DNA of 64,000 bases from Draconibacterium orientale (GTDB lineage: Bacteria > Bacteroidota > Bacteroidia > Bacteroidales > Prolixibacteraceae), in assembly GCF_000626635.1 (NCBI RefSeq), contig NZ_CP007451.1:3640501-3704500 (forward strand), written 5' to 3'. A program made the translations under genes and the position numbers. Positions 12,986 to 30,611 of this stretch are shown in pieces. Position 1 is the stretch's first letter. Each line of letters begins with the position of its first letter. A model generated the notes under the pieces. It was not told where the DNA came from and searched no databases. It saw only the letters and a program-made list of their open reading frames with translations.

Positions 12986-12998
12986 AAAAATTACAATT

Positions 12999-14933
12999 AT
13001 GAAAAAGAAACTTTTAATATATATCGCTCTGTTAGGAGTTGTTCTGTTCTCATGCCAGGAATTGAGCCTGGAGCCTAAAGGAATGTTAGGGGAGCCGGAA
13101 CTTTTTGGTAACGAGTACGGTGTAAAGAAATACTTTGCAGGTTTATACAACTATCTGCCCATTGAAGATTTCCTTTACTACGGAACAAACTCGAATAATG
13201 CTTACCGCCCAGACAACTACTGGGAACAAGGTAAAAACAGCCTGGGTAATATGAGTGGCGAGTTTTTTAATTCGTGGGTAGGTGTTGATAACGATGGTTT
13301 TGCCTACTGGCCATACGACCGTATTCGTGATGTAAACACTTTTATCGAAAATTTCCCGACGTATCAGGAAAAATATACTGATATTGATTACAACAAATTA
13401 ATGGGTGAAGCACATTTCTTACGTGCGTTCTTCTATTTTGGTTTGGCAAAACGTTATGGTGGTGTACCTCTTGTGAGAGAGGTTCAGAACCCGCTTGCTG
13501 ATGCTGATTCATTAAAAGTATCTCGTGCAACAGAATACGAGACCTGGAAATTTATCTACAGCGATCTTTCATTTGCTATTGATAACATGACAGAAAGCAC
13601 TGAATCTGGTCGTGCCAATAAGTATGCTGCAGCTGCATTACTTTCGCGTGCTATGCTTTATGCAGGTTCAAATGCGAAATATTCTCAGTACCTGGGTTTC
13701 GAGAACGAAGCGGCAACACAGGCAGGTTTGGCAGGAATGGATCCTTCAGTAGCTAACGAATTTTTCCAATATTGCGTTGATGCTGGAAAAGTACTGGAAG
13801 AAGGTCCTTATTCATTGTATACTGCCGGTTACCCAGATAAGGCAACCAACTTTGCGAAACTGTTTTTAGATCCTAATTCATCTGAAAGTATTTTGATTAA
13901 AGATTACGATCAAACTGTTCCTGGCAATACGCGTTTGCGTCATAGTTACGATGCATTAATGTCGCCACAACCAGATATGTCTTCGTTTGTTGGTGCAGAA
14001 AGTTATCCACCACTGGATTTTATGGAACTGTATGAAATGCCGGCATATACTAATCCTGACGGAACTCCGGTTCGTTTTGACAGCCGTAGCGATATTAGCA
14101 ACGGAATGGAACCACGTATGAGAGGTACAATGTATTTCGACGGTGATGAGTTACGCGGAAAAACTTTTGGAATGCAAAAAGGTATCTACAGAACATTCGA
14201 CGGACTTGCAGAAGATATTCAGAGAGGTAGTAATGCTGCACCAATCAACAGCGATGGTAACCGTATTTTAGGTGGACGTGGCTGGACTACAGAAATCGAT
14301 GGCGTTACTTACAATATTACCGGACCTCATGGACATTTTGATGATCAAGGTGGAGAGAACAACGGTTGGGGTGCTGCTTTCGTTCGCAAATATGTGAATC
14401 CGGATATGGCTACTAGTGATGTTCGTGAATACCGCAGTGGTCAGCATTGGGTAGTATTCCGTTTAGGAGAAGTGTACCTGAACACTGCCGAGGCGCTTTA
14501 CGAATTGGGTAAAAGAACTGAAGCGTTCGATTATATTGAAATGATTCGCGAGCGTGCAGGTTGCCAGGAAGTACGTCCCGTAATTGATATGACAATGACA
14601 AACATTGGTAGCATCAATGAAGCTAATTATCCATATCAAATTGAAAAATCATTGCAATTCATTCGCGATGAACGTGAACGCGAGCTTTATGGCGAAAATC
14701 ACTGGTGGTGGGATCTACGTCGGTGGAGAACTGCAGACCAGGTTTTGAACCAGTTTCGTCACAGAGTTCTAAGTTGTTATTTTGTAGCAGACGAAGGAAA
14801 ATACATTTATCTGGATGAAGACAACCGTTGGAACAGAGAATGGACCGCTTCAAAGCAATGTTACTACGAACCAATTCCGTGGGGAGAAATTGGTAAGAAC
14901 GAAAATCTGCTTCCTCAGAATCCACTTTACTAA
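12999..14933 (+). CDS. susD: SusD-like surface glycan-binding lipoprotein
   Basis: Cell-surface lipoprotein of 644 residues that forms the lid on SusC and captures glycan. The start at ATG 12999 gives a clear lipoprotein signal, MKKKLLIYIALLGVVLFSC, with the lipidated Cys at 19; upstream in-frame codons overlap the susC end. The N-terminal TPR-like part includes LMGEAHFLRAFFYFGLAKRYGGVPLV, a hallmark of SusD/RagB proteins. The C-terminal half contains FRLGEVYLNTAEALYELG and IRDERERELYGENHWWWDLRRW, typical of the family end. It is slightly longer than average. Partner of the SusC encoded upstream. Confidence 0.97.
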   Translation: MKKKLLIYIALLGVVLFSCQELSLEPKGMLGEPELFGNEYGVKKYFAGLYNYLPIEDFLYYGTNSNNAYRPDNYWEQGKNSLGNMSGEFFNSWVGVDNDGFAYWPYDRIRDVNTFIENFPTYQEKYTDIDYNKLMGEAHFLRAFFYFGLAKRYGGVPLVREVQNPLADADSLKVSRATEYETWKFIYSDLSFAIDNMTESTESGRANKYAAAALLSRAMLYAGSNAKYSQYLGFENEAATQAGLAGMDPSVANEFFQYCVDAGKVLEEGPYSLYTAGYPDKATNFAKLFLDPNSSESILIKDYDQTVPGNTRLRHSYDALMSPQPDMSSFVGAESYPPLDFMELYEMPAYTNPDGTPVRFDSRSDISNGMEPRMRGTMYFDGDELRGKTFGMQKGIYRTFDGLAEDIQRGSNAAPINSDGNRILGGRGWTTEIDGVTYNITGPHGHFDDQGGENNGWGAAFVRKYVNPDMATSDVREYRSGQHWVVFRLGEVYLNTAEALYELGKRTEAFDYIEMIRERAGCQEVRPVIDMTMTNIGSINEANYPYQIEKSLQFIRDERERELYGENHWWWDLRRWRTADQVLNQFRHRVLSCYFVADEGKYIYLDEDNRWNREWTASKQCYYEPIPWGEIGKNENLLPQNPLY

Positions 14934-14957
14934 TTATAAACAATTGACACTAATATT

Positions 14958-16250
14958 ATGAAAAAAATATTATATATAATTTTAGGAGTAATAATGGTTT
15001 CGGTTACTTCTTGTTTGGACATCGACAACTGGGATGAACCGGATGTAAGAGTCCATGGAAATATAATAGATTCGTACACCGGCGAGAATTTACTTTCATC
15101 GCAAGGCGAATGGGGAATCCGTATTTGGGAAAGAACCTGGACTGAATCTGTTCCTAACAACCAGAATTTAACTGTAAAACAGGATGGTTCGTATAACAAC
15201 AGCAAATTGTTTGCCGGAACATACGATATGCTTCCTTATGGTGGTCCTTTCTGGCCTGTTGATACAACAAAAGCTATTGTTTTTGATGGAAATACAGAAC
15301 AAGATTTTACAGTAACTCCATACTTACGTTTAACCGATTTCGAAGTTTCTTTGAACGGTTTAAAACTGATGTTGAAATGTAAGCTTAATGCGCCAGTTCG
15401 CGAAGGTTTACCAAACCTTGTTGAAATTAAACCTTTCTTAAGTCTTACTACTTTTTGCGGTGCAACAAATAACATCAACATTGGCGAGTATAACAATATG
15501 CGTAAGCAGATCAATAAATCTTGGGAAGAAGAAGTTGGTGATGCTGAAACAAGTGATGTATACCGTATTGGCCCAATGCCTGTAAAAGCTGGTTATACCT
15601 ATTATGTTCGTTTGGGTGCTAACGTAAACGATGCTAACCGCAAATACAACTACACCGAGATTGTAAAAGTTGAAGTACCAGCTGATGCAGTAAATGATCC
15701 GAACGAAGTTCCTGCCAACTTCTTCAGCAATGCTCAGTGGCCATTTAGTCGTTCAGAGTGGGATGGCAACCGTTGGGGTAATTTATCTGGCGGATGGATC
15801 ACCAACGAAGCAATGCGTACCCGTAGCGGTATGGGCGGATACGACGGTGGCTGGGAAGGCCCTGATAATGATAAGCAAAGTTTAGGTTTCGAACGTTGGG
15901 GTGAAGGTGAAACTCCAATTGAAAACGGTAAACTTTACCAAACGTTTGAACTTCCTGCAGGCGAATACAGATTTACAATGAGTTTGGCCGGAGAAAATCC
16001 AATTATCAGTAACAGTGGTGACGATCCAAGATATATTGTGGCCGCTCTTGGTGAAACCCTTCCTGATATAGAGGATCTTTCTTCAGCATTGGCTTCTACA
16101 AATTTCGCGGGTCTTGGAAACGATGGAAATGCAAGTGTTGAATTTTCAGTGGCCGAAAAGACTACGGTATCAGCCGGTTTTGTAGTTAATTTTACAGGTA
16201 CTGAGCAAAACGTGAGACCTTCGTGGCTTAAATTGGAAAAAATAGACTAA
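14958..16250 (+). CDS. DUF3823-type surface lipoprotein in SusE/F position
   Basis: Lipoprotein of 430 residues with signal MKKILYIILGVIMVSVTSC (Cys 19). The N-terminal region (about 20-240) matches DUF3823-type proteins found after susCD: RVHGNIIDSYTGENLLSSQGEWGIRIWERTW, then Ig-like strands ending in MPVKAGYTYYVRLGANV. The C-terminal region (about 255-430) is a jelly-roll resembling a DUF5013/carbohydrate-binding module: GKLYQTFELPAGEYRFTMSLAGEN. In known PULs such proteins bind the target glycan at the cell surface. It starts 24 bases after susD and is followed by a terminator, closing the transport operon. Confidence 0.85.
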   Translation: MKKILYIILGVIMVSVTSCLDIDNWDEPDVRVHGNIIDSYTGENLLSSQGEWGIRIWERTWTESVPNNQNLTVKQDGSYNNSKLFAGTYDMLPYGGPFWPVDTTKAIVFDGNTEQDFTVTPYLRLTDFEVSLNGLKLMLKCKLNAPVREGLPNLVEIKPFLSLTTFCGATNNINIGEYNNMRKQINKSWEEEVGDAETSDVYRIGPMPVKAGYTYYVRLGANVNDANRKYNYTEIVKVEVPADAVNDPNEVPANFFSNAQWPFSRSEWDGNRWGNLSGGWITNEAMRTRSGMGGYDGGWEGPDNDKQSLGFERWGEGETPIENGKLYQTFELPAGEYRFTMSLAGENPIISNSGDDPRYIVAALGETLPDIEDLSSALASTNFAGLGNDGNASVEFSVAEKTTVSAGFVVNFTGTEQNVRPSWLKLEKID

Positions 16251-16261
16251 AGGTAGTTTAT

Positions 16262-16304
16262 AAAATGGTTGTTCTTCACTAAGGTGTTGAGCAGCCATTT
16301 TTCT
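16262..16304 (+). terminator. Hairpin terminator after the SusCDE-type operon
   Basis: Thirteen-base stem with G-U pairs (16262-16274, AAAATGGTTGTTC, against 16289-16301, GAGCAGCCATTTT), loop of 14 bases, then T-rich sequence. It lies 11 bases after the DUF3823 gene stop and probably separates the transport genes from the enzyme genes. Confidence 0.6.
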
Positions 16305-16536
16305 AAAATTGTCATAGTTAGTTTTATACTCATACAAGTAAGGCATGTTTACCGTGCGGTTTCATGCTTTACTGTTTTTACGAATAAGCATTCTAAACTA
16401 ATTTGCATCTTCTCAAAAGTAGCTTCACCTACTAACTTAAAAAGTACAAAGAAATTCCCGGGCATTTGACTTAATAACAGAAAGGGATTAAAGCTAATTC
16501 TTCATGAAGGTATGCTGTAACTTACAAATCAAAAAC

Positions 16537-19500
16537 ATGAACCAAATATCAGTCAATAAACCATTATTAATAACAACAATATTGTTATTACTCTTCTCTT
16601 CAGCCTTAACTGCGCAAAACTGGAGATTGGTTGATTCTAAATATCCTACCATCGACAATGTTGTTATTGCCTATTCTGTTGCCGATTTTGGTATCACCGG
16701 TGATGGTGTTACCGATGTTACCGTACAATTTCAAACCCTGCTAAACGAGTTGGGAGCTTTAGGAGGAGGAACTTTATTTGTTCCTGAAGGGAAATATGTA
16801 ATTGAGGGAAACCTGCTTTTACCAAAGGGGATTACACTGCGAGGAGAATGGAAGAAACCCGAGAAAGGAGCACCTGTTGAAGGCACAATTTTAATGGCCT
16901 ATGCCGGGAGAGGAGATGAAAATGCTACTCCGTTTATTACCATGGAACCATCATCAGCAGTGATGGATCTTGCCATATGGTACCCCGAACAAAGCCCGTC
17001 AGCTATTACTCCATATCCACCTTCAATTGAATTTGGAAAACCCAATTATTTTGGAAATGAAAACTGCAATGCAAAAAATATTACACTGGTCAACTCGTAT
17101 GCCGGCGTCGTTTTTTCACGAAAAAATGGCGGTACATGCCCTACCATTAATGGCATTTACGGAACTCCTTTGTCAAGAGGTGTAGAAATTGATAATATTG
17201 TTGATGTTGGCCGCATCGAGTGGATCGACTTTTCGCCCGATTACTGGGCTGGATCCGGCTTACCTAATTCCCCATCGGTGGATGGAAGCCACAAAGCATG
17301 GATTTATGAAAACGGGACAGGTGTTGTTATGCGAAGAAACGACTGGTCGTACACCTGTTTTGTAAATGTAGAGGGCTACAATAAAGGATTTCATGCTGTG
17401 GAGTCTGTTACCAGTCCGGGAGCACAACCAAACGGGCATAATTATTCAATGACATTTACCAACTGTAAAACCGGTGTTGATATAAGCAGTGCCAACTCGG
17501 TTGGTTTAATGTTTACCGGCATTAAAACTGTGGATTGCGAAACTGGTATTGGTGTTGCGCAAACGGCATCGGGCGTTGTTCAGTTACACTCTTGTTCACT
17601 TGATGCAACTAAAAATGCCATTTCAATACACGAATCGTCAAGTACTCGTTTAATGGTGTTACAATCAGAAATAAACAGTGGTGCAGTTGATATTAAAGGA
17701 GGTACTTTTACGATTACCGACTGCGATTTAAATAACCCTGCACCTCAAATCAACCTAACGAAAAATACACGTGCCATTATAACAGGAAACCGCTTTGCAC
17801 AGGAAGTGCAGATTGAAGAAAGTTCAATATTTAAAAGTATAATCGATCACACTCCGGTAAATATGAAACAACTACCGGAAATAATGGAGGTAAAACCCGA
17901 AACACACAAACCATCGCGACTTGAATTATATGTGGCTACCGAAGCTCCTTTTGATGCTGTTGCCGACGGAGTAACGGACAACACAGTAGCTATTCAGGCG
18001 GCTCTGGACCAGGCAGCTACTGATGGTGGTGGTATCGTTTTTCTTCCACCTGGTAAATATAAAGTTTTAGGAAATCTCGTAATTCCTTCTAATGTTGAAC
18101 TCAAGGGTTCTGTAGATGTGAGCACTACACCAACCGGTCCGGGAAGTATACTGGAAGTTTATGCCGATCGGAATAATCCTGAAGGAGAGCCATTTCTAAA
18201 GCTCTCTGAAAACAGTGGTATTCGGGGAATCGTTTTCAATTACCCTGAACAGTTACTTTCTGATTTACCAAGTGTAGGAAAATATCCGTATTGTGTGCAG
18301 GCTACCGGAAGCGACACCTACATGATTAACATTGGTATGCGTGCAGTAAGCAAGGGAGTCGACCTTTTTACTTACCCATGCCACAATCATTATATCGATT
18401 ATATCGCCGGTCATGCTTTTGATATCGGAATCCGTGTTGGCGGAGGTACTACGGATGGCCGCATTTATAATACCCAGTTTAATGTGATTGCTTATGGTGC
18501 CGGCGACGAATCTAAATACGGAAGCTGGCCAAACTCGGCCGGCGACAGTGGCCCTGCTTACGATTATGGCTTTGCCAATTTCACTTTTATGGTTTTAGGC
18601 GATTGCCAGAACCAGTTGTTGTACAACGATTTTCATTATGGCTCGCATAACGGAATGATATTAAGCGACATTGATGGAACCGGGCCGTCGGGATTGAGTA
18701 TTGGAAGTGGTATTGATGGTGCCAGAAACGCACTAATTATTAATGCGGTGGGCAATAACGGATTTGATTTTGTAAACACACAAATCGTTTCCATTGGTGA
18801 TCAGGATACAAAATATATAGAGACAGGGACAGGATACACCTCGGGAGTAGCATTATTTAATGCCGACTTCTGGGGTAATCCTTCAAACGGAATTCGACTG
18901 AATGGTGGAGAACTTACACTTCAGCAGGCAAATATTAACCAGCCCGGTCAACAACGTATGGCGCTAATTTCCGGCGGAACTTTAAATATTGAAGCCTCAA
19001 GTGTATTTCCGAATAATTCGCTACTGGCTTACGGTACCGAATCACAATTTTCCATTCATTCATCGGTGGTTGATCCGACCGGGATTGATACCACACAATG
19101 TGTTGTTTGGGAAAACAACCTGTATAATACACCGGCAATTTCGCTTGAATCGGCGCTTAGCAGAACTTCATGGACGGTTTCGGCATCAAATAACTCAGGT
19201 GTTGCTACACGTGCCATTGATGGTACTGCCTCAACACGCTGGGATACCAACGGATCGCAAACTCCGGGACAGTGGTTTACAATCAATTTCGGGAAACCGG
19301 AAAAAATTGAGCAAATTATTATGGATGTTGCTGCAAGCCCGGCAGACTCTCCGCAGAAATATGAATTTTATGTGTCAGATAACGGAACCGATTGGTACGG
19401 ACCGGGTGCTGCAGGAGCCGGTGCTGATGTGATGACCATTGTGAGTTTTCCTTCTTCAACCGTGCAGTATGTAAGAATCAAACAAACCGGATCGAAAGGA

Positions 19501-20091
19501 AACTGGTGGTCGATTCACGAGGTTTACGCTTTTGGCGATGAAGATGCGATTAGTGTTAGCGGCATTGGTTTTAACAAACAACAGATTGGCTTGGCTATTG
19601 ACAGTGTTTACGAAGCTCAGCCTGTTTTCTCTCCTGAAAGTGCCGCCAATAAAACGGTATTCTGGAAATCAAGTAATTCAAATATTGCAACTGTGGATAC
19701 CACTGGTAATATAACCGGAATTTCGACGGGTACAGCCACAGTAACTGCGGTTAGTATGGACGGGATAAAAAAGGCAAGTCTTACTGTAGTTGTTAGTATT
19801 GATGGGGTGACTTCGATTGGCGAGATTACAAATGCTGATAGTAACGCTATAAAATTGTTTCCTAATCCGGTTTCGGAAAAGGTTACTTTAAGCTACCATA
19901 CAAATAATACGGAAGAAGTTTTTGTAGAGCTATTTAGCCTAAACGGAATGGCTGTAAAATCAACATCATTTCACTCGCATCCGGGTGAAAACTTGTCATC
20001 TTTATCATTGGCCGAACTTACTCCGGGAGTATATTTTGTGCGGTTTCGAACAGGTGAAGGTAGACGGCTTAGAAAGCTTATAGTGCAATAG
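16537..20091 (+). CDS. Tandem right-handed beta-helix enzyme with discoidin, Ig-like and T9SS domains
   Basis: Secreted protein of 1184 residues; start ATG 16537 chosen because MNQISVNKPLLITTILLLLFSSALTAQ is a clean signal peptide. Two pectate-lyase-3/GH28-related beta-helix domains occur in tandem (about 30-450 and 460-830). Each opens with the same pattern: DFGITGDGVTDVTVQFQTLL...FVPEGKY, and FDAVADGVTDNTVAIQAALD...LPPGKY. Then follow a discoidin/CBM32-like domain (about 865-1000, WFTINFGKPEKIEQIIMDV), a bacterial Ig-like group 2 domain (about 1005-1090) and a T9SS sorting domain (IKLFPNPVSEKVTLSY to KLIVQ). Two joined helices recall GH55 exo-beta-1,3-glucanases, but the activity is not proven. 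It has a paralogue at 40179-42992. Confidence 0.85.
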   Translation: MNQISVNKPLLITTILLLLFSSALTAQNWRLVDSKYPTIDNVVIAYSVADFGITGDGVTDVTVQFQTLLNELGALGGGTLFVPEGKYVIEGNLLLPKGITLRGEWKKPEKGAPVEGTILMAYAGRGDENATPFITMEPSSAVMDLAIWYPEQSPSAITPYPPSIEFGKPNYFGNENCNAKNITLVNSYAGVVFSRKNGGTCPTINGIYGTPLSRGVEIDNIVDVGRIEWIDFSPDYWAGSGLPNSPSVDGSHKAWIYENGTGVVMRRNDWSYTCFVNVEGYNKGFHAVESVTSPGAQPNGHNYSMTFTNCKTGVDISSANSVGLMFTGIKTVDCETGIGVAQTASGVVQLHSCSLDATKNAISIHESSSTRLMVLQSEINSGAVDIKGGTFTITDCDLNNPAPQINLTKNTRAIITGNRFAQEVQIEESSIFKSIIDHTPVNMKQLPEIMEVKPETHKPSRLELYVATEAPFDAVADGVTDNTVAIQAALDQAATDGGGIVFLPPGKYKVLGNLVIPSNVELKGSVDVSTTPTGPGSILEVYADRNNPEGEPFLKLSENSGIRGIVFNYPEQLLSDLPSVGKYPYCVQATGSDTYMINIGMRAVSKGVDLFTYPCHNHYIDYIAGHAFDIGIRVGGGTTDGRIYNTQFNVIAYGAGDESKYGSWPNSAGDSGPAYDYGFANFTFMVLGDCQNQLLYNDFHYGSHNGMILSDIDGTGPSGLSIGSGIDGARNALIINAVGNNGFDFVNTQIVSIGDQDTKYIETGTGYTSGVALFNADFWGNPSNGIRLNGGELTLQQANINQPGQQRMALISGGTLNIEASSVFPNNSLLAYGTESQFSIHSSVVDPTGIDTTQCVVWENNLYNTPAISLESALSRTSWTVSASNNSGVATRAIDGTASTRWDTNGSQTPGQWFTINFGKPEKIEQIIMDVAASPADSPQKYEFYVSDNGTDWYGPGAAGAGADVMTIVSFPSSTVQYVRIKQTGSKGNWWSIHEVYAFGDEDAISVSGIGFNKQQIGLAIDSVYEAQPVFSPESAANKTVFWKSSNSNIATVDTTGNITGISTGTATVTAVSMDGIKKASLTVVVSIDGVTSIGEITNADSNAIKLFPNPVSEKVTLSYHTNNTEEVFVELFSLNGMAVKSTSFHSHPGENLSSLSLAELTPGVYFVRFRTGEGRRLRKLIVQ

Positions 20092-20106
20092 CAAGATTGT
20101 TAAAAA

Positions 20107-21804
20107 ATGAAGCGAGTTAATAAAAATATAAGACCCGGTTGGACCAAGTTGAAACTTATGGTGATTCTGCTCGGCTGTGCTGTGGCAGCGAAAGCACAGA
20201 ATCCATTTGTTGAGAGTATTTACACTGCCGATCCTTCAGCACATGTATGGTCAGACGGTCGGTTATACGTTTATCCCTCGCATGATATTGCGCCTCCACA
20301 AGGATGCGATTTGATGGATCAGTACCATGTTTTTTCAACCGATGATATGGTAAACTGGACAGATCATGGAGAAATTCTTCGGGCAGACGACGTTGACTGG
20401 GGAAGGGCAGAAGGTGGTTTTATGTGGGCACCCGATTGTGCTTTCAAGGACGGAACTTACTACTTTTATTTTCCGCATCCTTCAGGCAGTGGCGATCAAT
20501 GGAACTCAACCTGGAAAATTGGCGTGGCCACAAGTTCTGAACCGGCAGCGAATTTCGAAGTTCAGGGCTATATCGAAGGCTTAAAATCGATGATCGATCC
20601 TTGTGTATTTGTCGATGACGACGGGCAGGCCTATTTATATTATGGCGGCGGAAACCTTTGCGAAGCCGGAAAGCTAAAAGACAATATGATGGAAATTGAC
20701 GGGCAGATGCAGCAAATGCAGGGCCTCGTTGATTTTCATGAAGCAACTTGGGTGCACAAGTACAACGGGATGTATTATCTCTCGTATTCCGATAATAATA
20801 ACGATGGAGGAAACCAACTGCGTTACGCGGTAAGTGATAGCCCGCTTGGTCCGTGGACCTACAGAGGCGTTTATATGAAGCCAACAGGCAGCCCGACTAA
20901 CCATGGCTCGATAGTAGAATATAAAGGCCAGTGGTATGCTTTTTATCACAACAGCATTTTGTCGGGGCATCCATGGTTGCGATCCATTTGTGTCGATTCG
21001 CTTTTTTATAATCAAGACGGCACCATACAGGAGGTTACGCAAACGCGTGAACACGGAACCCCATATTTAGAACCAGCACATTCGATTCCTGGAACCATCG
21101 AAATGGAAGACTACGACCAGGGAGGCCAGGGGAAAGCATACAGTGACTCAGATACATCAAATAACGGAAATGACTATCGCGAAAATGAAGGTGTGGATGT
21201 GGAGATGAACAGTCCGGGAAACTACAATATTGGCTGGACCACTGGTGGCGAGTGGATAGAATACACGGTTGAGGTTACTGAATCAGCACTTTACAGTTTT
21301 GAGTTGCGAGCGGCTTCTCCCGATGGTAATGGAAAGTTTCATTTAAAAATTGATGAAGTAAATGTTTCCGGTTCTGTAGTTATTCCTTCAACAGGGGGCT
21401 GGCAAAACTATCAGTCATTTACCGTACCGGATATTCCGTTGAAAGAAGGAACGCATATTATTCAGTTTTTTGAAGAAACCGGAGGTTTCAATCTCGATAA
21501 AATGATTGTGACCAAAAGTGGCGTACTTTCTTCCGGGAAGAATATTGTAAACAGCGAAACGGATATTATGCTGTTCCCAAACCCTGCAAAAGGTTCGGTG
21601 TCGTTAAGGTTTCAGGGAATTTCTACTCAGGATCTTCATCTTGAAATTCGCAACATAAACGGTCAGCTGGTAAAGAGCTTTGAAAAACAGAACAGTAGCG
21701 AGGGAATTCAGTTGGACATCAGCGGAATCTCTGCCGGTACTTATTTTTTGGTTCTGAGATCGGATAGAAAACAGCTTTCAAAAAAACTTATGGTGTACGA
21801 ATAA
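20107..21804 (+). CDS. GH43 glycosidase with CBM6 and T9SS sorting domain
   Basis: Extracellular or surface-anchored glycosidase of 565 residues, probably an arabinofuranosidase, xylosidase or galactosidase-type inverting enzyme. After a signal peptide (cleaved near AKA-QNPF), a five-bladed GH43 propeller spans about 32-320. The three family acids are visible: base D42 (YTADPSAHVW), pKa modulator D164 (SMIDPCVF) and acid E212 (DFHEATWVHK). A CBM6-like domain follows (about 330-465, IEMEDYDQGGQGKAYSD, YNIGWTTGGEWIEYTVEV), then a T9SS C-terminal domain (MLFPNPAKGSVSLRF to KLMVYE). It lies 15 bases after the beta-helix gene. It is a close paralogue of the two single-domain GH43 proteins at 21850 and 30612, the only one with extra domains. 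Confidence 0.9.
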   Translation: MKRVNKNIRPGWTKLKLMVILLGCAVAAKAQNPFVESIYTADPSAHVWSDGRLYVYPSHDIAPPQGCDLMDQYHVFSTDDMVNWTDHGEILRADDVDWGRAEGGFMWAPDCAFKDGTYYFYFPHPSGSGDQWNSTWKIGVATSSEPAANFEVQGYIEGLKSMIDPCVFVDDDGQAYLYYGGGNLCEAGKLKDNMMEIDGQMQQMQGLVDFHEATWVHKYNGMYYLSYSDNNNDGGNQLRYAVSDSPLGPWTYRGVYMKPTGSPTNHGSIVEYKGQWYAFYHNSILSGHPWLRSICVDSLFYNQDGTIQEVTQTREHGTPYLEPAHSIPGTIEMEDYDQGGQGKAYSDSDTSNNGNDYRENEGVDVEMNSPGNYNIGWTTGGEWIEYTVEVTESALYSFELRAASPDGNGKFHLKIDEVNVSGSVVIPSTGGWQNYQSFTVPDIPLKEGTHIIQFFEETGGFNLDKMIVTKSGVLSSGKNIVNSETDIMLFPNPAKGSVSLRFQGISTQDLHLEIRNINGQLVKSFEKQNSSEGIQLDISGISAGTYFLVLRSDRKQLSKKLMVYE

Positions 21805-21849
21805 CATTTGGAAAAAGTAATTCAAACAAAATAATTTAATCGGTATAAA

Positions 21850-22839
21850 ATGATTGTAAGAAAATTAAAATTGCTAATTGCAAAAAGAAACATCTTGAGA
21901 AGTTTAATGCTGGGAACGCTACTTGTTGTTGGCATTTCGGCACAAGCGCAAAAAAATCCGTTTGTAACGCACATGTACACTGCCGATCCGTCGGCACACG
22001 TTTGGGAAGACGGACGTTTGTATGTTTATCCTTCGCACGATGTAGCTCCTCCACGCGGGTGTGATTTAATGGATCGTTACCATGTTTTTTCAACAGATGA
22101 TATGGTAAACTGGGTAGATCATGGTGAGATATTAAGCTCTGAAGATGTGGATTGGGGACGCCCTGAAGGTGGTTTTATGTGGGCTCCTGATTGTGCTTAT
22201 AAAGATGGAACTTACTATTACTATTTCCCTCACCCAAGCGGATCGGAATGGAATAATACCTGGAAAATAGGTGTGGCTACCAGTAAATACCCGGCAAAAG
22301 ACTTTAAAGTTCAGGGATACATTAAAGGATTGAAATCGATGATTGACCCTTGTGTTTTCATTGATGATGATGGTGAGGTATATTTCTACTACGGTGGTGG
22401 CGGAAAATGTGAAGGTGGAAAACTGAAAGACAATATGATGGAAATTGACGGGGAAATGAAACCGATGGAAGGTTTGGAAGATTTTCATGAAGCTACCTGG
22501 GTACATAAGTACAATGGAGTTTACTATTTGTCTTATTCGGATAATCACGACGAAGGAAACGACACAGAAGGAGTAAAAGGCGATAACAGAATGCGTTATG
22601 CCACAAGTGATAATCCTCTGGGACCATGGAAATACCAGGGCATATACATGCAACCAACCGACTCCTACACCAATCACGGTTCAATTGTAGAATTTAAAGG
22701 ACAGTGGTATACATTTTACCACAACAGTTCATTATCTGCTAAAAATGGTGAATTCAACGATTGGTTACGTTCTATCTGCGTAGATAAATTGTACTACAAT
22801 GAGGATGGAACTATTAAAATGGTAAATCAAACCAACTAA
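21850..22839 (+). CDS. GH43 glycosidase, single-domain
   Basis: Exported GH43 enzyme of 329 residues, nearly colinear with residues 32-320 of the preceding gene product. The signal peptide ends near AQA-QKNPF. The catalytic triad is conserved: D46 (YTADPSAHVW), D166 (SMIDPCVF) and E214 (DFHEATWVHK). It lacks the CBM6 and T9SS tail, so it should stay in the periplasm or be released by another route, and would trim oligosaccharides after import. It is 45 bases downstream of the CBM6-bearing copy, suggesting tandem duplication. The GH43 subfamily and linkage cannot be fixed without comparison to characterised enzymes. Confidence 0.9.
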   Translation: MIVRKLKLLIAKRNILRSLMLGTLLVVGISAQAQKNPFVTHMYTADPSAHVWEDGRLYVYPSHDVAPPRGCDLMDRYHVFSTDDMVNWVDHGEILSSEDVDWGRPEGGFMWAPDCAYKDGTYYYYFPHPSGSEWNNTWKIGVATSKYPAKDFKVQGYIKGLKSMIDPCVFIDDDGEVYFYYGGGGKCEGGKLKDNMMEIDGEMKPMEGLEDFHEATWVHKYNGVYYLSYSDNHDEGNDTEGVKGDNRMRYATSDNPLGPWKYQGIYMQPTDSYTNHGSIVEFKGQWYTFYHNSSLSAKNGEFNDWLRSICVDKLYYNEDGTIKMVNQTN

Positions 22840-22857
22840 TTCGCATAGTTTTTTAAT

Positions 22858-22894
22858 ATCGGCAGTCTCCGTTTATCGGAGGCTTCGCCGGTAT
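22858..22894. repeat. Imperfect hairpin after GH43 gene
   Basis: Inner stem CTCCG/CGGAG (22867-22871 with 22877-22881), extended by GGC...GCC pairs on both sides. It is not followed by a T-run, so it may be an mRNA 3'-end stabilising or processing structure instead of a classical terminator. Confidence 0.45.
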
Positions 22895-22947
22895 TTATGA
22901 ACGACCTTTTTAACCTGAACGATAAACCTAAAACTTAATCTGAAATG

Positions 22948-22991
22948 CGCATAAATTAATATTCAGAATCAACTTGTTTGGTATTTATGCG
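22948..22991. promoter_or_regulatory. Spaced inverted repeat upstream of ceramidase-like gene
   Basis: CGCATAAAT (22948-22956) and ATTTATGCG (22983-22991), perfect nine-base arms with a 26-base spacer. The right arm runs straight into a TTCCATCTT word also found at 26188 and 30480. The position, about 75-120 bases before the gene at 23067, suits an operator, but no regulator has been linked to it. Confidence 0.3.
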
Positions 22992-23066
22992 AATTCCATC
23001 TTTTTATTAGGTCGATTGAAAAGCGATTATTTATTCAATTAGAAAAGTTAATTAAAAATCAGATAG

Positions 23067-24392
23067 ATGGAAAAGATGAAATTAATCGTTAAATTATTGA
23101 TTGTGTTACTAATTACAGTACGGCCTGTATTTAGTTTCGCAGCCACAGCCGATTTGCTTGCAGGTACGGCAAAAGTAAATATTACATCATCCTCTGAAAT
23201 GCCTTTGCACGATTCGTTGTATGCAAGGGTGTTACTGCTTAAAACATCCGAACAGGAATTGGCCTTTATTGCTGTTGACCAGGGAATTTTTACGAGTGAT
23301 AAACTCGTGCAGAAATGTAAAGAAAAACTGGGGATTTCACAGGTACTTATTTCTTCCTCGCATACGCATTCCAGTGGTGGTAGCGATAAAGAGTATATCG
23401 ATTCACAAATTATAAAGGCGCTACAAGAAGCTGAAAAATCGATGTTTCCGGCCAGGATCTCGGCTGGAAGCAGAACATTCCCTCAACTGGGATTTAATCG
23501 CTTAATTGTTCGTGAAGATGGACATTCTCGCGAATCCTGGTTTTCCGATGAACATTATACTTCGGAAAATCCCGAACGTATACCTTTTGGCCCCGTTGAT
23601 CCGGATGTTGGCGTTATAAAGGTGGAAGATTTAAATGGAACGCCACGGGCAATCTTAATGAATTATGCTATGCATTCGGATATTGTTTGCAGTAACTACG
23701 AAATATCTGCAGATTATCCGGGAGTAGCCTGTCGCAAGGTGGAAGAAGCTTTTGGCGACGATATGACCTGTCTTTTTGTTCAGGGAGCCGGTGGCGACAT
23801 TGAATCGCTGATTATAAGCTCTCGCCGCAAGGGCCCGGATGATACCTTTAAATCGGATTACCGGACAATCGAGCGGGTTGGTGAATTACTGGCATGGGAA
23901 ACAATTAAGCTTGCAAAAAGTATTGAAGCAGAAGCAGATATAAAACCATCCATCAGCCTGATGACCGATTCGCTTCATTTTAACGGGCGTTTTAAACACG
24001 ATGCCGACTATGATATTCATATTTCCACTATTTTAATAAACAATAACATTGTGATTGCAACTTGCCCGGGCGAACCATTTATTCGGCTTCAACTCGATTT
24101 AAAACGGAAAATCAGGGAAGCCGGAGGAACACCATTTTTATTTGGCTATACCTGGTCTGAAGGAACCTGGCCAAACTATATTCCCGATATTTTATCGGCT
24201 GCCCGAGGCGGTTACGGTGCCGATCAAAGCTGGCCGGAACCCATTGCGGTTGGTGCCGGTGAGACGATTATGAACAAACATTTCGAGAATTACCTTCGGA
24301 TTAATGGATTAATGCGAACCGATTACGGACCTGTTGGTTTTAAGGGAGGCTCGCAATGGAAAACTATAGAGATACCTTCACAGGAGAACTAA
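23067..24392 (+). CDS. Neutral/alkaline ceramidase-like exported hydrolase
   Basis: Exported protein of 441 residues with signal peptide MEKMKLIVKLLIVLLITVRPVFSFA. It matches the catalytic domain of neutral ceramidases. Zn-ligand-type motifs are SSHTHSSGG (residues 97-105) and NYAMHSDIV, followed by SADYPGVACRKVEE and FVQGAGGDIESL, which correspond to the nucleophile-loop and active-site regions. The C-terminal Ig-like domain of true ceramidases is absent. Family members in PULs are common, but their substrates are mostly unknown; an amide or ester decoration on the glycan is an inference. It ends 22 bases before the next GH43 lipoprotein gene, with which it probably forms a unit. Confidence 0.8.
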   Translation: MEKMKLIVKLLIVLLITVRPVFSFAATADLLAGTAKVNITSSSEMPLHDSLYARVLLLKTSEQELAFIAVDQGIFTSDKLVQKCKEKLGISQVLISSSHTHSSGGSDKEYIDSQIIKALQEAEKSMFPARISAGSRTFPQLGFNRLIVREDGHSRESWFSDEHYTSENPERIPFGPVDPDVGVIKVEDLNGTPRAILMNYAMHSDIVCSNYEISADYPGVACRKVEEAFGDDMTCLFVQGAGGDIESLIISSRRKGPDDTFKSDYRTIERVGELLAWETIKLAKSIEAEADIKPSISLMTDSLHFNGRFKHDADYDIHISTILINNNIVIATCPGEPFIRLQLDLKRKIREAGGTPFLFGYTWSEGTWPNYIPDILSAARGGYGADQSWPEPIAVGAGETIMNKHFENYLRINGLMRTDYGPVGFKGGSQWKTIEIPSQEN

Positions 24393-24414
24393 TAACATCG
24401 TAAAAACTAGTGAA

Positions 24415-26133
24415 ATGGTTAAGAATTCAGTATTTCTCATTTTTCTGATAATTGCATTTGTGGCTTGTAAACAAGAGCCTGAGTCGAAAATTATACAAGA
24501 TATTAAAACGATATGCAATCCGCTGGATTTGAGTTACCGTTTTCAGTTGGACGAACCTTCGCGCAGGGAAGCGGCCGATCCAACAGTGGTATTGTTTCAG
24601 GACGAGTATTACCTGTTTGCTTCAAAATCGGGCGGATACTGGTATTCGTCAGATCTGGCAGACTGGACTTTTGTAAAAACCGATGAAATTCCAACCGAAC
24701 AATATGCGCCAACAGCCCTGGTCATTAACGATACGATGTATTTTATGGCATCATCGAATTCTATTTTTAAAGCTACAGACTTAAAAGGAGGTAAATGGAA
24801 ATTAGCGGCAGAACTTCCATTTGGTGTAACCGACCCGGCTCTTTTTCTCGACGATGACCAGCGGCTCTATTTTTATTGGGGATGTTCGGATAAAGAACCT
24901 ATTTACGGCGTAGAACTGGATTATCGAAACAACTTTCAGCCTGTTGGCGATAGAGTTGAACTGATGCATGCCGATACCAAAAATCATGGATGGGAAGTTC
25001 CGGGAGATTATAACAATTTGCTTGACAATGCGCCATGGATTGAAGGTGCCTGGATGAATAAACACAATGGCAAATATTACCTGCAATATGCCGGGCCCGG
25101 TACACAGTTTAAAAGCTACTCTGATGGCGTATATACTTCGGATCATCCGCTGGGTCCGTTTACGCTGGCCGTAAATAATCCTTTTGCCTGTCATCCCGAA
25201 GGTTTTGCTACAGGTGCAGGGCACGGAAGTACTTTCGAAGACAAGTATGGAAATTTCTGGCACATTGGTACAGTTACCATTTCGCAAAAACACATGTTCG
25301 AGCGCCGCCTTGCACTTTATCCGGCTTTTTTTGATGAGCAGGGAGAATTGTATTCAGACACCCGGTTTGGCGATTATCCGATGACCGTTCTTTCTGAAAA
25401 AGTGAAAAGCAAAGATGAAATTTTCCCGGGTTGGATGTTGCTTTCGTACAACAAACCAGTTTCTGTGCTAACAGAAGTTGATAGTTGTCCGAAGGAAAAT
25501 ATTACCGATGAGGACATTAGAACCTACTGGTCTGCGCAAAGCGGATCAAACCAATGGGCGGTAATTGATCTGGAAACAGAAAGCGATGTGTATGCTGTTC
25601 AAATTAATTTTGCCGAGCACAACACCAATGTTTACGACCGGCAACCACATTTTCGTTACCGTTATTCTGTTGATGTTTCGTCGGATAACAAAAACTGGCA
25701 AACGATTATCGATCGTTCTGATAACGAAACCGATAACTCGCATCCTTATATTCAGCTAAAATCAAAAGTAAGCTGCCGGTATATGCGGATAACCAACTAC
25801 GAAATACCAGCGGGTAATTTTGCGCTTTCAGGGTTTCGGGTTTTCGGTTTGGGGAACGGTGATAAACCTGCCTCAGTTTCTAACTTAAAGGTTGAGCGGC
25901 CTTCGGAAAACAGGCGTGTGGTCAATTTGAGTTGGGAAAAAACACCAGGTGCGGTTGGTTATCAAATTAGATATGGTGTAACAGAAAATAAGCTATATCA
26001 AAGCTATAAAGTATATAACGACACCGCTGTTACCATTAATAGCCTGAACGCAAACCGAATTTACTTTTTTGCGATAGAGGCTTTTAATGAAAATGGTGTA
26101 ACTGAAACTTCATCAATTATAAAAGTTGACTAA
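24415..26133 (+). CDS. GH43-like lipoprotein with discoidin and fibronectin III domains
   Basis: Lipoprotein of 572 residues (Cys 18 in IIAFVACKQ). The propeller domain (about 45-345) has the GH43 acids D55 (AADPTVVL), D140 (VTDPALFL) and E210 (APWIEGAWM), so it should be active. It is only distantly related to the three other GH43 proteins. A discoidin/F5-8C domain (about 350-475, WAVIDLETESDVYAVQINFAEHN ... CRYMRITNYEIPAGNFALSGFRVFG) and a fibronectin type III domain (about 485-572, SVSNLKVERPSENRRVVNLSWEKTPGAVGYQIRY) follow. The lipid anchor and binding domain suggest the outer surface or outer-membrane inner face. Linkage specificity unknown. Confidence 0.85.
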   Translation: MVKNSVFLIFLIIAFVACKQEPESKIIQDIKTICNPLDLSYRFQLDEPSRREAADPTVVLFQDEYYLFASKSGGYWYSSDLADWTFVKTDEIPTEQYAPTALVINDTMYFMASSNSIFKATDLKGGKWKLAAELPFGVTDPALFLDDDQRLYFYWGCSDKEPIYGVELDYRNNFQPVGDRVELMHADTKNHGWEVPGDYNNLLDNAPWIEGAWMNKHNGKYYLQYAGPGTQFKSYSDGVYTSDHPLGPFTLAVNNPFACHPEGFATGAGHGSTFEDKYGNFWHIGTVTISQKHMFERRLALYPAFFDEQGELYSDTRFGDYPMTVLSEKVKSKDEIFPGWMLLSYNKPVSVLTEVDSCPKENITDEDIRTYWSAQSGSNQWAVIDLETESDVYAVQINFAEHNTNVYDRQPHFRYRYSVDVSSDNKNWQTIIDRSDNETDNSHPYIQLKSKVSCRYMRITNYEIPAGNFALSGFRVFGLGNGDKPASVSNLKVERPSENRRVVNLSWEKTPGAVGYQIRYGVTENKLYQSYKVYNDTAVTINSLNANRIYFFAIEAFNENGVTETSSIIKVD

Positions 26134-26166
26134 TTGATTCAAAAAAAACTATAACCAATGAAACGA

Positions 26167-26184
26167 GTCCCGAATTATCGGGAC
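26167..26184. repeat. Perfect seven-base-pair hairpin in intergenic gap
   Basis: GTCCCGA-ATTA-TCGGGAC, 34 bases after the GH43 lipoprotein stop and 43 bases before the next start. No T-run follows. It may be an attenuating or RNA-processing hairpin. Confidence 0.5.
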
Positions 26185-26226
26185 GAGTTCCATCTTATAC
26201 CTTAGAAAACGAAAAATTTAAATAAG

Positions 26227-27474
26227 ATGAAAAACCGAAATCTATTGTTACTGATAATTTTTGCTACTGTTTTATTGAGTTGTGGCAGCCAGACTGAACG
26301 AGAAGAATTATATTATTTTGATGGGAACGGGATATCTGAAGAAGTTTTAAGCAATTATCTTGATCGCTCGGTAACAATGGCATTTTATCTTGTACCCGAA
26401 AAGCCTGAAGGACGAAGACAATATCCTTATCATGAAGATGATGTGAGGATGATTAAAAATATTGGTGCGAAATTTATCGGACGTTCCATTTACCGGTGGG
26501 GAGGCGAAAGCCGCTTAAACGAACCTGACTTTTGGAAAACCGCACAAGCTTTAATCGATACCCTCCATAATTTCGATCCCGAGATCATATTTCAGGGCTG
26601 TTTATTCGAAATTGTAACGCAGGATGTTAATAGCGTTAAAATTCCGGACTGGGTATTCGAGGGATTTGATTTGCCGGTTGAAGAACGAAATTTTTCGTAC
26701 GACAAAATGTTGAATAAAAGAGGTGTTATGGTTGATCACTGGCGCAAAGGCAGTAGTGTGCCGGATATAAGCAGGAAGGAAACACAACTATGGTTTTATT
26801 ACCTGGCCGGTGCCTATATAAATTTGGGATGCGAAGCTTTTCATTTAGGACAGGTTGAGTTAATTGGTATGAACGATCAGAAACGAGTAGCCTGGCAGAG
26901 CCTGTTAATGAAGATACGAGCATACGCAAAAGGGCATGCCCGGCGAAACTGGGTGATTCTTGACGCACATGTACCCAAAGGAGATATGATTAAAGATGGA
27001 GTTAGTCTGATCGATTTTAATTCATTTCCGCTGCGTATTAAAGAAATTCCGGAAAAACCATACGAATGCAAACTGGAAGAGAACTACCTTGATGCGCTGT
27101 ATAATAAAAGTAAAGGTTGTATTTCTCCCAGCGGCTGGTCATGCGATAGCCTGCCATATCTTGTTGAGTTTGATAATTACGGAAGAAATGGAGAACCAAA
27201 TGTCGCTGATACGACTTCGCACTTCGTTTGGGGATGGGACGAAATTTCGTGGTTTGCTCAGCAAGATGAACCAAGCAGAAATGCCTGGCTGGAATATGCA
27301 TACAACTGGATAAAAGACATCGACCCGAACGGCCACTTACAAATGCCGGTTAGCAGAATGTTATCTTGTCCAAACGAAACAGCAGGAAGCTACAGGGCCA
27401 ATACAAAAAGTGAAGCCTGTCCGATTGGCTATTCACAGGAAGAAACAATAAAACGAATTTGGAACGGTAATTAA
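26227..27474 (+). CDS. Unrecognised lipoprotein, possible TIM-barrel glycosidase
   Basis: Lipoprotein of 415 residues (signal MKNRNLLLLIIFATVLLSC, Cys 19). No family was recognised. The residue pattern resembles a TIM barrel: short hydrophobic strands each ending in polar or acidic residues, such as GAKFIGRSIYRWGGE, DPEIIFQGCLFEIVTQ, LGCEAFHLGQVELIG, ARRNWVILDAHVPKGD, LPYLVEFDNYGR and SHFVWGWDEISWF. Glu at the ends of CLFE and GQVE, and Asp/Glu in VEFD and WDE, are possible catalytic acids. The location between GH43 and the PUL regulator, and the lipid anchor, suggest a role in degrading the same glycan. It may belong to an uncharacterised glycoside hydrolase family. This is inference. Confidence 0.6.
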   Translation: MKNRNLLLLIIFATVLLSCGSQTEREELYYFDGNGISEEVLSNYLDRSVTMAFYLVPEKPEGRRQYPYHEDDVRMIKNIGAKFIGRSIYRWGGESRLNEPDFWKTAQALIDTLHNFDPEIIFQGCLFEIVTQDVNSVKIPDWVFEGFDLPVEERNFSYDKMLNKRGVMVDHWRKGSSVPDISRKETQLWFYYLAGAYINLGCEAFHLGQVELIGMNDQKRVAWQSLLMKIRAYAKGHARRNWVILDAHVPKGDMIKDGVSLIDFNSFPLRIKEIPEKPYECKLEENYLDALYNKSKGCISPSGWSCDSLPYLVEFDNYGRNGEPNVADTTSHFVWGWDEISWFAQQDEPSRNAWLEYAYNWIKDIDPNGHLQMPVSRMLSCPNETAGSYRANTKSEACPIGYSQEETIKRIWNGN

Positions 27475-27755
27475 GTTTCAGGAATTCCGTTTTCTGCAAA
27501 CTTTCATATCCGGGCTAAACTCTTTTTTGTTTTATATGTTAAATTAAAGGGGTGTATTAAAGCCAAAATGACCACAAGATTGCATCTGCCCGGTAGAATG
27601 TTTGTTTTGTTAGAAAACCAAGAGGAATATTGTATTATCTGGGTACAAACGTTTTAACGATTTGTACGTAGGATACAAGCCTCGGTTGATGTTTCAAAAC
27701 TATTTATATAACTCGGAAAATTTGATCCATTTTAATACATTTGGGTCTCTTAAAG

Positions 27756-30320
27756 ATGATAGATGTGAAATTATTAGTTTGTGTAAATGTTATTTTTCTT
27801 TTGTTAGCAACGAAAATATTTGCGCAAAATGAACTAAACTCAGGATTGTATTTTGCATCATCTGAGGTAGTGCAAGACCAGCGAACTTCCTTAAATCTTA
27901 CGCCTGAAGAAGCTATAAAACTAGCCGATGGTTTTAAGCTGGATTTTGATATTCAGTTAAGGTTGGGTGACGGTTATTATGGTTATGTTTTCCGAATCTT
28001 CGCGAACTCAACTGAAAATTTCGATTTTATTGTAAATTATGCATCAGAAAACGAGAATCTTTCCCTGGTTTTCAAAGAAAAAATCTTGTGTTCTTTTCGT
28101 TGGGAGGATGTTCCTGATTTCGACTATAACAAATGGTTTCATGTTACTTTTCAGCTTAATTCGGAACAACAGGATGTTGAAATTGGCATAAATGGAATTT
28201 CCAAAAAGGCATCGATCGATTTTGATGAAGAAGACCGTTTTGATATTCTATTTGGAATATCAAAAGCTACGCCTTTTCAAAGTACCGATGTATGCCCGAT
28301 GACTATAAAAAACATTCAGTTATACGATCGAAACGAAAAGATGGTCAGGAACTGGTTGTTATCAAAACATATCTTCAATGAAACCTACGATGAAATAGAA
28401 GGGGCTGTTGCGGTGGTCGATAATCCGAAATGGCTGATTGATGCACATTTATCGTGGGAAGAAGTTAACCATCTGAAGTTAAATGCATTTTACGGTGCAG
28501 TTAGCAACGAAAATACTGAGGAACTGTTTTTTGTTGATCAAGATTATATTCTTCGTTACAATCTGAATACAAGCGAGATAGATAGCATTCTTTACAAAGC
28601 AGGCAGCCCATACCGACAACTGAACGAGAAACATGTTGTTTACAATGCTTACACCAACGAAATATGGTCGTACAATCTGGATCAACCTGGAGTAAGCAAA
28701 TTTAGTTTTTCAAGCCAGGAATGGTCGGATGATCCGGTACAGATGGCCGAATCTAACTTTGGGCATCATAATAAAATTATTTCGCCTGTAGATAGTTCGC
28801 TGGTGGCTATTTTGGGATATGGGTTATACCGTTACAACAGTACGGTTTTTAATTATGATCCTGTAAATAACTCATGGGAAAAGTTTGACAGAAGTAACCA
28901 GATTGAACCGCGTTACCTGGCTGCTACAGGATTACTTAATGATGATACTTTGTTGGTATTTGGTGGATATGGAAGTAAAACCGGACGGCAGGAATTAACT
29001 CCTGGGGCGTATAACGATTTGTATTCGCTCGATCTTCATACTTTACAGTTCAGTAAAATGATGGACTATGAAGTTCCTGAAATTCCTTTTGTACCTGCAG
29101 AATCCCTGATTATAGACGATGACTCTACCAGCTTTTACACCCTGGTTTTCGATAATTCAAAATACAGTTCGACAATAAAACTGGCAAAATTTGGTATTTA
29201 TGAGTCGACTCAATTTATCTACCCTGATTCCATTGTGTTTGATTTTCAGGATACCGATTCGTGGTCGTACCTTTATTTGAATAAAAAATTACGAAAGTTA
29301 TTTGCAGTTACTACAAATAAGTCGGATGTTAAAATCTATTCGATGGCTTATCCGCCGCTTGTACCAGATGATGTGTTTCAGAAAGTGAAAGCAAAAAGGC
29401 AAAAGTCGGCTGGAAAAAATGGTAGTCCAATGCTTTTGCTTGCATTGGCACTGAGTGTTATGATAATAGTTTTGGCATATTTTTACGATAAACGAAAACG
29501 TAAAGTTGTTGTAAATGATGAGGGGAATTCAGAACCCGTTTCCTACGAAAAACAAATGTACCGGAAGCCAGAAAAGGTTAAAAAATCATCAGTTCTGTTT
29601 TTGGGAGGATTTCAAATTTATAGTGAATCAGGGGTAGACATTACCTCCGATTTTTCGCCAATGCTAAAACAGTTGTTTTTAATAATTTTCCTGAATACGA
29701 TTCACCGGGGAAAAGGAATCTCTTCTAAAAAACTGGATGAAACCTTGTGGTTTGATAAAACAGAAAAAAGTGCCCGAAACAATCGAAATGTAAATATAAG
29801 CAAACTTCGAAATGCAATTGAAGAGGTTGGAGGTTTAGAAATTGTTTATGAGAACTCGTACTGGAAACTGAAAATGTCGTCGAATATTTACTGCGACTAT
29901 TTGCATGTTTTGCGCATTACAACCAAATCAGATGACGAGCACCTTGACTTGAAGGATATTGCAACCCTTTACGGATTGCTGGATAAGGGCGAATTGCTAC
30001 CAAACCTTGAGATTGACTGGATTGACTCGTATAAAGCACAATATACCAATTCTGTAGTTGATTTTCTGGTGAAACTCTTGTCCCGGAAAGAACTCCAGGA
30101 TGATAAAAAAACGTTGTTACATATCGCCGACAATATTTTCTCGCTCGATTCATTGAATGAGGATGCATTGATTGTAAAATGTAAGATTCTTCACAAAGAT
30201 GGAAAAGGAAGTGTTGCTCTTAATGCTTACAATTCTTTCTGCAAAGAATATCAAAATCTACTCAACTCTCAATACCCTGCCTCATTCAAGGATGTACTGA
30301 CCGGTGATACCGATTCATGA
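27756..30320 (+). CDS. Membrane-bound Kelch/SARP-type sensor-regulator of the PUL
   Basis: Protein of 854 residues; start at ATG 27756 because MIDVKLLVCVNVIFLLLATKIFA is a signal peptide. The periplasmic part has a LamG/concanavalin-like domain (about 25-210, FKLDFDIQLRLGDGYYGYVF ... KNIQLYDR) and a Kelch-like propeller (about 240-545, NDDTLLVFGGYGSKTGR, FNYDPVNNSWEKF). One membrane helix (about 558-577) is followed by basic DKRKRK, placing the rest in the cytoplasm. Residues about 607-700 form an OmpR/SARP winged helix (LGGFQIYSESGVDI, KKLDETLWFDKTEKSARNNRNVNISKLRNAIEEVG). Residues about 715-850 look like a bacterial transcriptional activation (BTAD/TPR) domain. It is the only regulator inside the PUL, so it likely senses the glycan in the periplasm and binds PUL promoters directly. 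No kinase or receiver domain is present. Confidence 0.8.
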   Translation: MIDVKLLVCVNVIFLLLATKIFAQNELNSGLYFASSEVVQDQRTSLNLTPEEAIKLADGFKLDFDIQLRLGDGYYGYVFRIFANSTENFDFIVNYASENENLSLVFKEKILCSFRWEDVPDFDYNKWFHVTFQLNSEQQDVEIGINGISKKASIDFDEEDRFDILFGISKATPFQSTDVCPMTIKNIQLYDRNEKMVRNWLLSKHIFNETYDEIEGAVAVVDNPKWLIDAHLSWEEVNHLKLNAFYGAVSNENTEELFFVDQDYILRYNLNTSEIDSILYKAGSPYRQLNEKHVVYNAYTNEIWSYNLDQPGVSKFSFSSQEWSDDPVQMAESNFGHHNKIISPVDSSLVAILGYGLYRYNSTVFNYDPVNNSWEKFDRSNQIEPRYLAATGLLNDDTLLVFGGYGSKTGRQELTPGAYNDLYSLDLHTLQFSKMMDYEVPEIPFVPAESLIIDDDSTSFYTLVFDNSKYSSTIKLAKFGIYESTQFIYPDSIVFDFQDTDSWSYLYLNKKLRKLFAVTTNKSDVKIYSMAYPPLVPDDVFQKVKAKRQKSAGKNGSPMLLLALALSVMIIVLAYFYDKRKRKVVVNDEGNSEPVSYEKQMYRKPEKVKKSSVLFLGGFQIYSESGVDITSDFSPMLKQLFLIIFLNTIHRGKGISSKKLDETLWFDKTEKSARNNRNVNISKLRNAIEEVGGLEIVYENSYWKLKMSSNIYCDYLHVLRITTKSDDEHLDLKDIATLYGLLDKGELLPNLEIDWIDSYKAQYTNSVVDFLVKLLSRKELQDDKKTLLHIADNIFSLDSLNEDALIVKCKILHKDGKGSVALNAYNSFCKEYQNLLNSQYPASFKDVLTGDTDS

Positions 30321-30611
30321 GTTATTCGTATCCCAAATTTAATCATCGATAGTTCAGATAACCTCTGGCCTTTTTTTATTTGGTCGATAATCTGCTACCC
30401 GAAAGTGTCGAATTTTATCTTTTGGGTATTTTCTCAAATCACTTCTGTATGCGAAATTCAAAAGGATAATTCCGATTAATTCCATCTTTTTTCCTGATGT
30501 ATTAAAATTAATTGAGCTGTTTGCCAAAAATTAATGCATTTGTTAATCCCCGCATCCTTTATTTGAGCATTAATTATTTAAAACCAACTATTCATTAAAT
30601 ATTAGATCTGT

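Follow-up and report, generated by a model that had tools for sequence, protein, structure and literature searches.

The window, a stretch of 64,000 nucleotides from Draconibacterium orientale, contains a PUL and, within it, an open reading frame with full-length relatives (27756-30320, + strand) that encodes a putative regulator of 854 amino acids. The gene lies between two gene runs, each preceded by a likely operator. According to Pfam the upstream run of presumed target genes (9773-27474, + strand) encodes SusC, SusD, a DUF3823 protein, GH43 enzymes and others, and the downstream run (30612-63999, + strand) encodes GH43, GH92, GH3, GH99-like, GH95, GH2 and other proteins. One product of the downstream run (45837-51647) is a protein of 1936 amino acids in which a GH95 part precedes a GH2 part, and a short open reading frame upstream of the PUL (1328-1894) gave no Pfam match. 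The product of 27756-30320 is probably a single protein that couples extracytoplasmic sugar sensing by a propeller with cytoplasmic DNA binding and so turns on the neighbouring sugar-digestion genes; it is probably also one member of a family recurring across Bacteroidota. Its orthologue in D. mangrovi (L032) is 85% identical over the whole length.

Domain anatomy and output module of the regulator

The AF2 model of the regulator, built with 78 sequences, reached a mean pLDDT of 89.7 and a pTM of 0.64, so that the domains are well modelled and their relative placement less so. The domains follow each other on the + strand, beginning with a predicted signal peptide (residues 1-23; 27756-27824), recognized from the sequence and an AF2 helix at 4-22. 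Next come a beta-sandwich (residues 30-222; 27843-28421; 31-222 in the AF2 model), originally read as LamG-like and in which Pfam found no LamG match, and a Kelch beta-propeller (residues 229-536; 28440-29363; modelled at 235-531). Kelch_3 and Kelch_4 scored above the Pfam cut-offs, and the modelled propeller matched solved Kelch domains in Foldseek and in VIA, whose rows test little outside residues 230-536; the protein has Kelch repeats that form a beta-propeller. A predicted transmembrane helix (residues 557-579; 29424-29492; AF2 helix and sequence) is followed by a basic stretch, and the linker 579-599 has pLDDT values under 50. The cytoplasmic part would consist of a winged helix (residues 610-708; 29583-29879; modelled at 612-707), supported by AF2, hhalign and conservation and with its recognition helix at 670-691, and of a BTAD-type helical module (residues 709-850; 29880-30305), supported by hhalign and AF2, with six modelled helices between 714 and 836. 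No kinase, receiver or AraC domain was found in the regulator by Pfam at E<=10. This anatomy agrees with the original prediction, made from the sequence alone, which had foreseen the Kelch sensor and a single transmembrane helix between it and a cytoplasmic module, and had named the modelling of a winged helix as a test.

In single-sequence Pfam and NCBIfam scans the winged helix and BTAD module of the regulator were absent or sub-threshold. Among the C-terminal parts of 78 family members BTAD (15) and Trans_reg_C (11) were the commonest Pfam families at E<=1, every match being weak; a profile of the 78 members was therefore compared with proteins above the BTAD cut-off. Against 13 BTAD proteins hhalign gave 99.5%, and against 12 of them 99.4% (P 1.6e-21, 233 columns), with 97.0% for the winged-helix part alone and 98.1% for the BTAD part alone, whereas six unrelated families and five column-shuffled versions used as controls gave at most 0.9%. 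The winged helix and BTAD region that had been proposed from the sequence are thus clear by profile-profile comparison despite the sub-threshold single-sequence scans. Searched against PDB sequences, the 12-protein BTAD profile matched AfsR (E 2e-20) and EmbR (E 1e-14) along their SARP modules, and designed TPR proteins outscored both through the BTAD helices; the C-terminal profile of the family found no relative among PDB sequences below E 0.5, and L237 alone found none.

The output module of the regulator aligns end to end with BTAD proteins matching AfsR and EmbR and, by hhalign and AF2 topology, has the SARP order, with an OmpR-type winged helix first and an all-helical BTAD part after it. 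In the recognition helix A673, N675, N676 and V679 are identical in 78/78 rows, and R677 and K683 in 75/78. Large SARPs carry the module at the N-terminus with the extra domains C-terminal to it (accessible text of PMC10936776), whereas here it occupies residues 610-850 of 854, behind the signal peptide, Kelch propeller and transmembrane helix. We class the regulator by its SARP-type output module and do not count it among the classical large SARPs.

Distribution of the family and linkage to PULs

In the family to which the window's organism belongs, 93 of 140 genomes had a match at E<=1e-5, many to the C-terminal module only, and in an even sample of the phylum the C-terminal profile matched 12 of 395 genomes at E<=1e-8, the window's genome included. 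A scan of GTDB genomes yielded 347 relatives, of which the best 80, each matching at least residues 109-808, were kept; these include Draconibacterium, Bacteroides, Pedobacter, Dyadobacter, Mucilaginibacter, Lutibacter, Polaribacter, Tamlana, Echinicola and Chitinophagaceae. In three of the 80 loci (L034, L036 and L038) there is an in-frame stop; A2/A3 omit them and the neighbourhood counts include them. A scan of genome contigs with the single protein found nothing.

Linkage of the homologues to PULs had likewise been set as a test, and susC/susD and CAZyme genes proved to be more common near them than in random stretches. At 61 of the 80 loci an adjacent gene encodes SusC (26), GH92 (19), a GH99-like protein (11) or another enzyme of the kind found in the window's PUL (13). 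Counted by locus, SusD was present in 36/80 as compared with 8/40 random 20-kb stretches, GH99-like in 38/80 versus 0/40, GH92 in 31/80 versus 2/40 and DUF3823 in 21/80 versus 0/40, the 40 stretches being drawn from 10 genomes in the same family as the window's organism, which are not those that carry the 80 loci. SusC genes are often divergent from the regulator gene or immediately downstream. GH99-like genes are no less frequent beyond 6 kb from the regulator gene than within two genes of it, and DUF3823 genes occur only away from it. The GH99-like assignment is weak (Pfam below cut-off; match to a PDB endo-alpha-mannosidase at E 2e-4). The link of the Kelch branch to alpha-mannosides is a hint and no substrate assignment; the PUL of the window also has GH43, GH95, GH2, GH3 and pectin-type enzymes by Pfam.

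A second branch of the family keeps the output module with another sensor (Laminin_G_3 and no Kelch in 8/8 proteins scanned). On a tree of output modules (115 Kelch-type and 21 other rows) the sensor label requires 2 changes versus 19.8 for shuffled labels, the labels being derived from match coverage and not from row-by-row domain scans. For PUL genes the 21 loci with other sensors are close to the random stretches (SusD 4/21, GH92 1/21).

The window's genome has one paralogue with the same output module (L114:9974-12508, - strand), which carries a LamG domain. Divergent from it lies a gene (L114:12731-14254, + strand) for a protein with NapC/NirT cytochrome c and FGE-sulfatase domains, and an exact TTAA triplet is present between the two. 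L176 has a neighbour of the same kind, and in L175, L179, L183, L185 and L190 the neighbour is similar in length to this cytochrome c/sulfatase gene. Two relatives of the regulator lie close together in L058 (9989 and 19077) and also in G441, G323 and G512.

TTAA repeats beside the regulator genes

A TTAA motif was first seen by eye in within-clade alignments of 85 intergenic regions flanking the regulator genes. These regions come from 68 of the 80 loci, the other 12 having no suitable intergenic of 80-800 bp; counts made on them are not independent of the discovery, in contrast to those on held-out loci. A TTAA-TTAA spacing of 11 bp occurred 110 times in the 85 regions (38.8 per 10 kb), as compared with 264 control intergenics (2.9 per 10 kb) and 160 intergenics located over 4 kb from the regulator gene (5.4 per 10 kb), and the spacing of 22 bp was likewise raised. 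The exact TTAA triplet with spacings of 11 or 12 was present in 47/85 regions (mean 0.9 and maximum 3 in 20 shuffles), in 32/62 after removal of similar regions (shuffle mean 0.45) and, with one mismatch allowed, in 67/85 (shuffle mean 8.85). Among the 33 held-out loci 29 had the triplet at <=1 mismatch and 15 had it exactly; by region the figures were 30/57 and 15/57, with shuffle means of 4.85 and 0.35. The held-out set leaves out L116, L117 and L124, family loci that duplicate kept ones, and 13 of its 33 loci belong to relatives in the alignment behind the scan, outside the motif-discovery regions. The triplet was missing from 8/68 discovery loci and 4/33 held-out loci. Beside relatives with other sensors it was found in 10/21 loci at <=1 mismatch and in 6/21 exactly, counts that have no shuffle control.

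The repeats have a usual position relative to the Bacteroidota -7 box, which has the consensus TAnnTTTG. At <=1 mismatch and reading towards the neighbouring gene, this box was located exactly 11 nt past a repeat pair in 24/85 regions versus 2 in the opposite direction, and smaller peaks at 22 and 33 correspond to earlier pairs in the same TTAA arrays. In the held-out set 12 of 34 neighbour-facing regions had a box at 11-12 nt, none had one at 0-10 or 13 nt, and there was none at 11-12 nt in the opposite direction; one mismatch is present in 11 of these 12 boxes, and redundancy was kept among the regions, some of which come from closely related loci. The accessible text of PMC10936776 describes SARP sites as direct repeats spaced by 11 or 22 bp, the last of them 8 bp from the -10 element. 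As a sequence pattern the related and held-out loci have the same arrangement of direct repeats at 11/22 bp and a fixed distance to a -10-type box, and for a heptamer repeat that starts with TTAA the distances would coincide with those of SARPs.

In the window, predicted operator 1 (9619-9645, + strand) is an exact triplet with TTAA cores at 9619, 9630 and 9642, located 127 bp before the start codon of susC, and its cores are conserved in D. mangrovi. No good -7 box was found 11-12 nt after it, where TACTTAGC has three mismatches. Predicted operator 2 with its promoter (30508-30565, + strand), upstream of the gene starting at 30612, has cores at 30508, 30531 and 30543 and is also conserved in D. 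mangrovi; a -7-like box, TTTATTTG, lies at 30558-30565, 11 nt past the last core and 46 bp before the start codon. Since its spacings are 23 and 12 and not 11/11, neither the window nor the D. mangrovi orthologue passes the triplet test in the regions that flank the regulator gene. The two predicted operators fall within the two regions (9178-9772 and 30321-30611) to which binding of the cytoplasmic part had originally been proposed. A further conserved region upstream of the regulator gene (27593-27754, + strand; 88% identity to D. mangrovi), presumably its own promoter, contains no TTAA triplet. Exact words common to the promoters of susC and 30612 were uninformative.

The whole genome of 5.13 Mb contains 17 exact TTAA triplets versus 42 matches of a reversed control pattern. 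A scan for repeats together with the -7 box gave 8 sites versus 11 for the reversed control, that at 30531 being the only one in the window, so genome-wide prediction of targets from repeats and -7 box alone is unreliable. The surroundings of three other genomic triplets were inspected and no target was assigned.

Proposed mechanism and alternatives

On the computed anatomy, the kinship of the output module, the genomic linkage and the repeat pattern with its usual promoter position we base the reading, to which we give a probability of about 80%, that the regulator is a membrane-anchored one-component activator with a periplasmic Kelch sensor and a SARP-type module that acts on TTAA repeats and recruits RNA polymerase. 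The propeller and the preceding beta-sandwich would be located in the periplasm and bind a glycan fragment that the PUL releases and that may contain alpha-mannose, and a single helix would cross the inner membrane. The winged helix and BTAD module would bind the direct TTAA repeats of 11-bp spacing, placed where a -33 box would stand, with protomers presumably side by side, and the module, held at the membrane, would recruit RNA polymerase to the -7 box 11-12 nt further down; what suggests activation together with RNA polymerase is the geometry of the promoters. In the window the regulator would act on susC through 9619-9645 and on the genes from 30612 through 30508-30565.

The same output could be reached if the cytoplasmic module worked after proteolytic release from the membrane. 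The low pLDDT of the linker suggests a flexible joint that might be cleaved, and no observation requires such a step; we consider release rather unlikely.

Improbable, in our judgement, is that the TTAA repeats belong to another regulator of the OmpR/PhoB type, the Kelch protein being a membrane protein linked to PULs and its SARP module binding elsewhere. The stretch that separates a histidine kinase gene from a PhoB-like gene (G000:C1:1430147-1430191, L213) carries a TTAA triplet with a -7-like box, and PhoB-type regulators of Bacteroidota may recognize a box with this geometry. The 17 triplets in the genome show that they are not rare, and in Bacillus subtilis the TTAACA-like PhoP box has an 11-bp period. 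Against this, control intergenics have the 11-bp spacing at a density about 13 times lower than the regions beside the regulators, held-out loci show it again, and the triplet also accompanies other-sensor relatives that are not linked to PULs above random (the 10/21 loci counted without a shuffle control).

SARPs are activators, which argues against the regulator being a repressor that leaves its promoter upon glycan binding, a reading we hold to be very improbable. It is also opposed by the location of the repeats a constant 11-12 nt ahead of the -7 box, the position published for SARP activators (accessible text of PMC10936776).

The proposed membrane activator shares features with several known systems. 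With the HTCS of Bacteroidota PULs it has in common a periplasmic propeller sensor, a single membrane protein and the linkage to PULs, and it differs from them by having no kinase, receiver or AraC domain in Pfam scans. In the accessible text of PMC3878776 predicted HTCS motifs comprise two sites on average 21 bp apart, whereas the TTAA cores at the regulator loci are 11 bp apart. From SARPs the regulator differs also by its linkage to PULs. ToxR and CadC, with an N-terminal cytoplasmic winged helix and a C-terminal periplasmic domain, likewise join an OmpR-type winged helix to a periplasmic sensor by one transmembrane helix, but the regulator has the mirror layout, with the sensor N-terminal and the winged helix and BTAD module C-terminal. 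A propeller, a transmembrane helix and a cytoplasmic DNA-binding domain are also combined in one chain in Reg_prop/Y_Y_Y membrane proteins whose C-terminus carries a LuxR-type HTH; the regulator has Kelch in place of Reg_prop/Y_Y_Y and a SARP module in place of the LuxR HTH.

HTCS, ECF/anti-sigma systems and some cytoplasmic regulators account for most of what has been described on the control of Bacteroidota PULs, and SARP-type control is best known from actinobacterial antibiotic clusters. We consider it fairly probable that the family represents a further architecture of PUL control, in which membrane SARP-type activators found across Bacteroidota combine varied periplasmic sensors (Kelch, or LamG after an N-terminal region with no assigned domain) with one conserved winged-helix/BTAD output and a common 11-bp TTAA operator, the Kelch branch serving largely alpha-mannosidase-type PULs (GH92, GH99-like). 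The output module and the repeat logic are already known from SARPs. In the literature searched, which excluded most subscription papers and preprints, we found no description of a Kelch-SARP regulator of PULs and no precedent for such a module placed behind a membrane sensor, for Kelch as its sensor, for its linkage to PULs across Bacteroidota or for the operator; the words kelch and SARP are absent from the accessible parts of PMC3878776 and PMC10766802. If true, a periplasmic Kelch sensor coupled to a membrane SARP-type activator would add a signalling route that operates without phosphotransfer, and SARP-type control would have been reused behind a membrane sensor for sugar use. The explicit pattern of operator and promoter would make the targets beside each such gene predictable and testable.

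The original prediction included sensing of glycans by the propeller and activation by the regulator, and named the regulator the best candidate to control the 54-kb PUL; we infer the sensing and the activation, and likewise sole control of the 54-kb region. The statement of the prediction that the PUL has no other regulator holds for the Pfam-scanned genes from 7427 to 63999; outside them an open reading frame of 186 amino acids with a TTG start (2326-2886) has an AraC-type HTH only and is possibly the remnant of a regulator. After the window's PUL a second susCD pair is present (G000:C1:3704500-3724000, L112). An HTCS-like gene (Y_Y_Y, frame of 1366 amino acids) lies about 18.5 kb beyond the end of the window, 9 kb after the second susD, and may control the distal part of the region.
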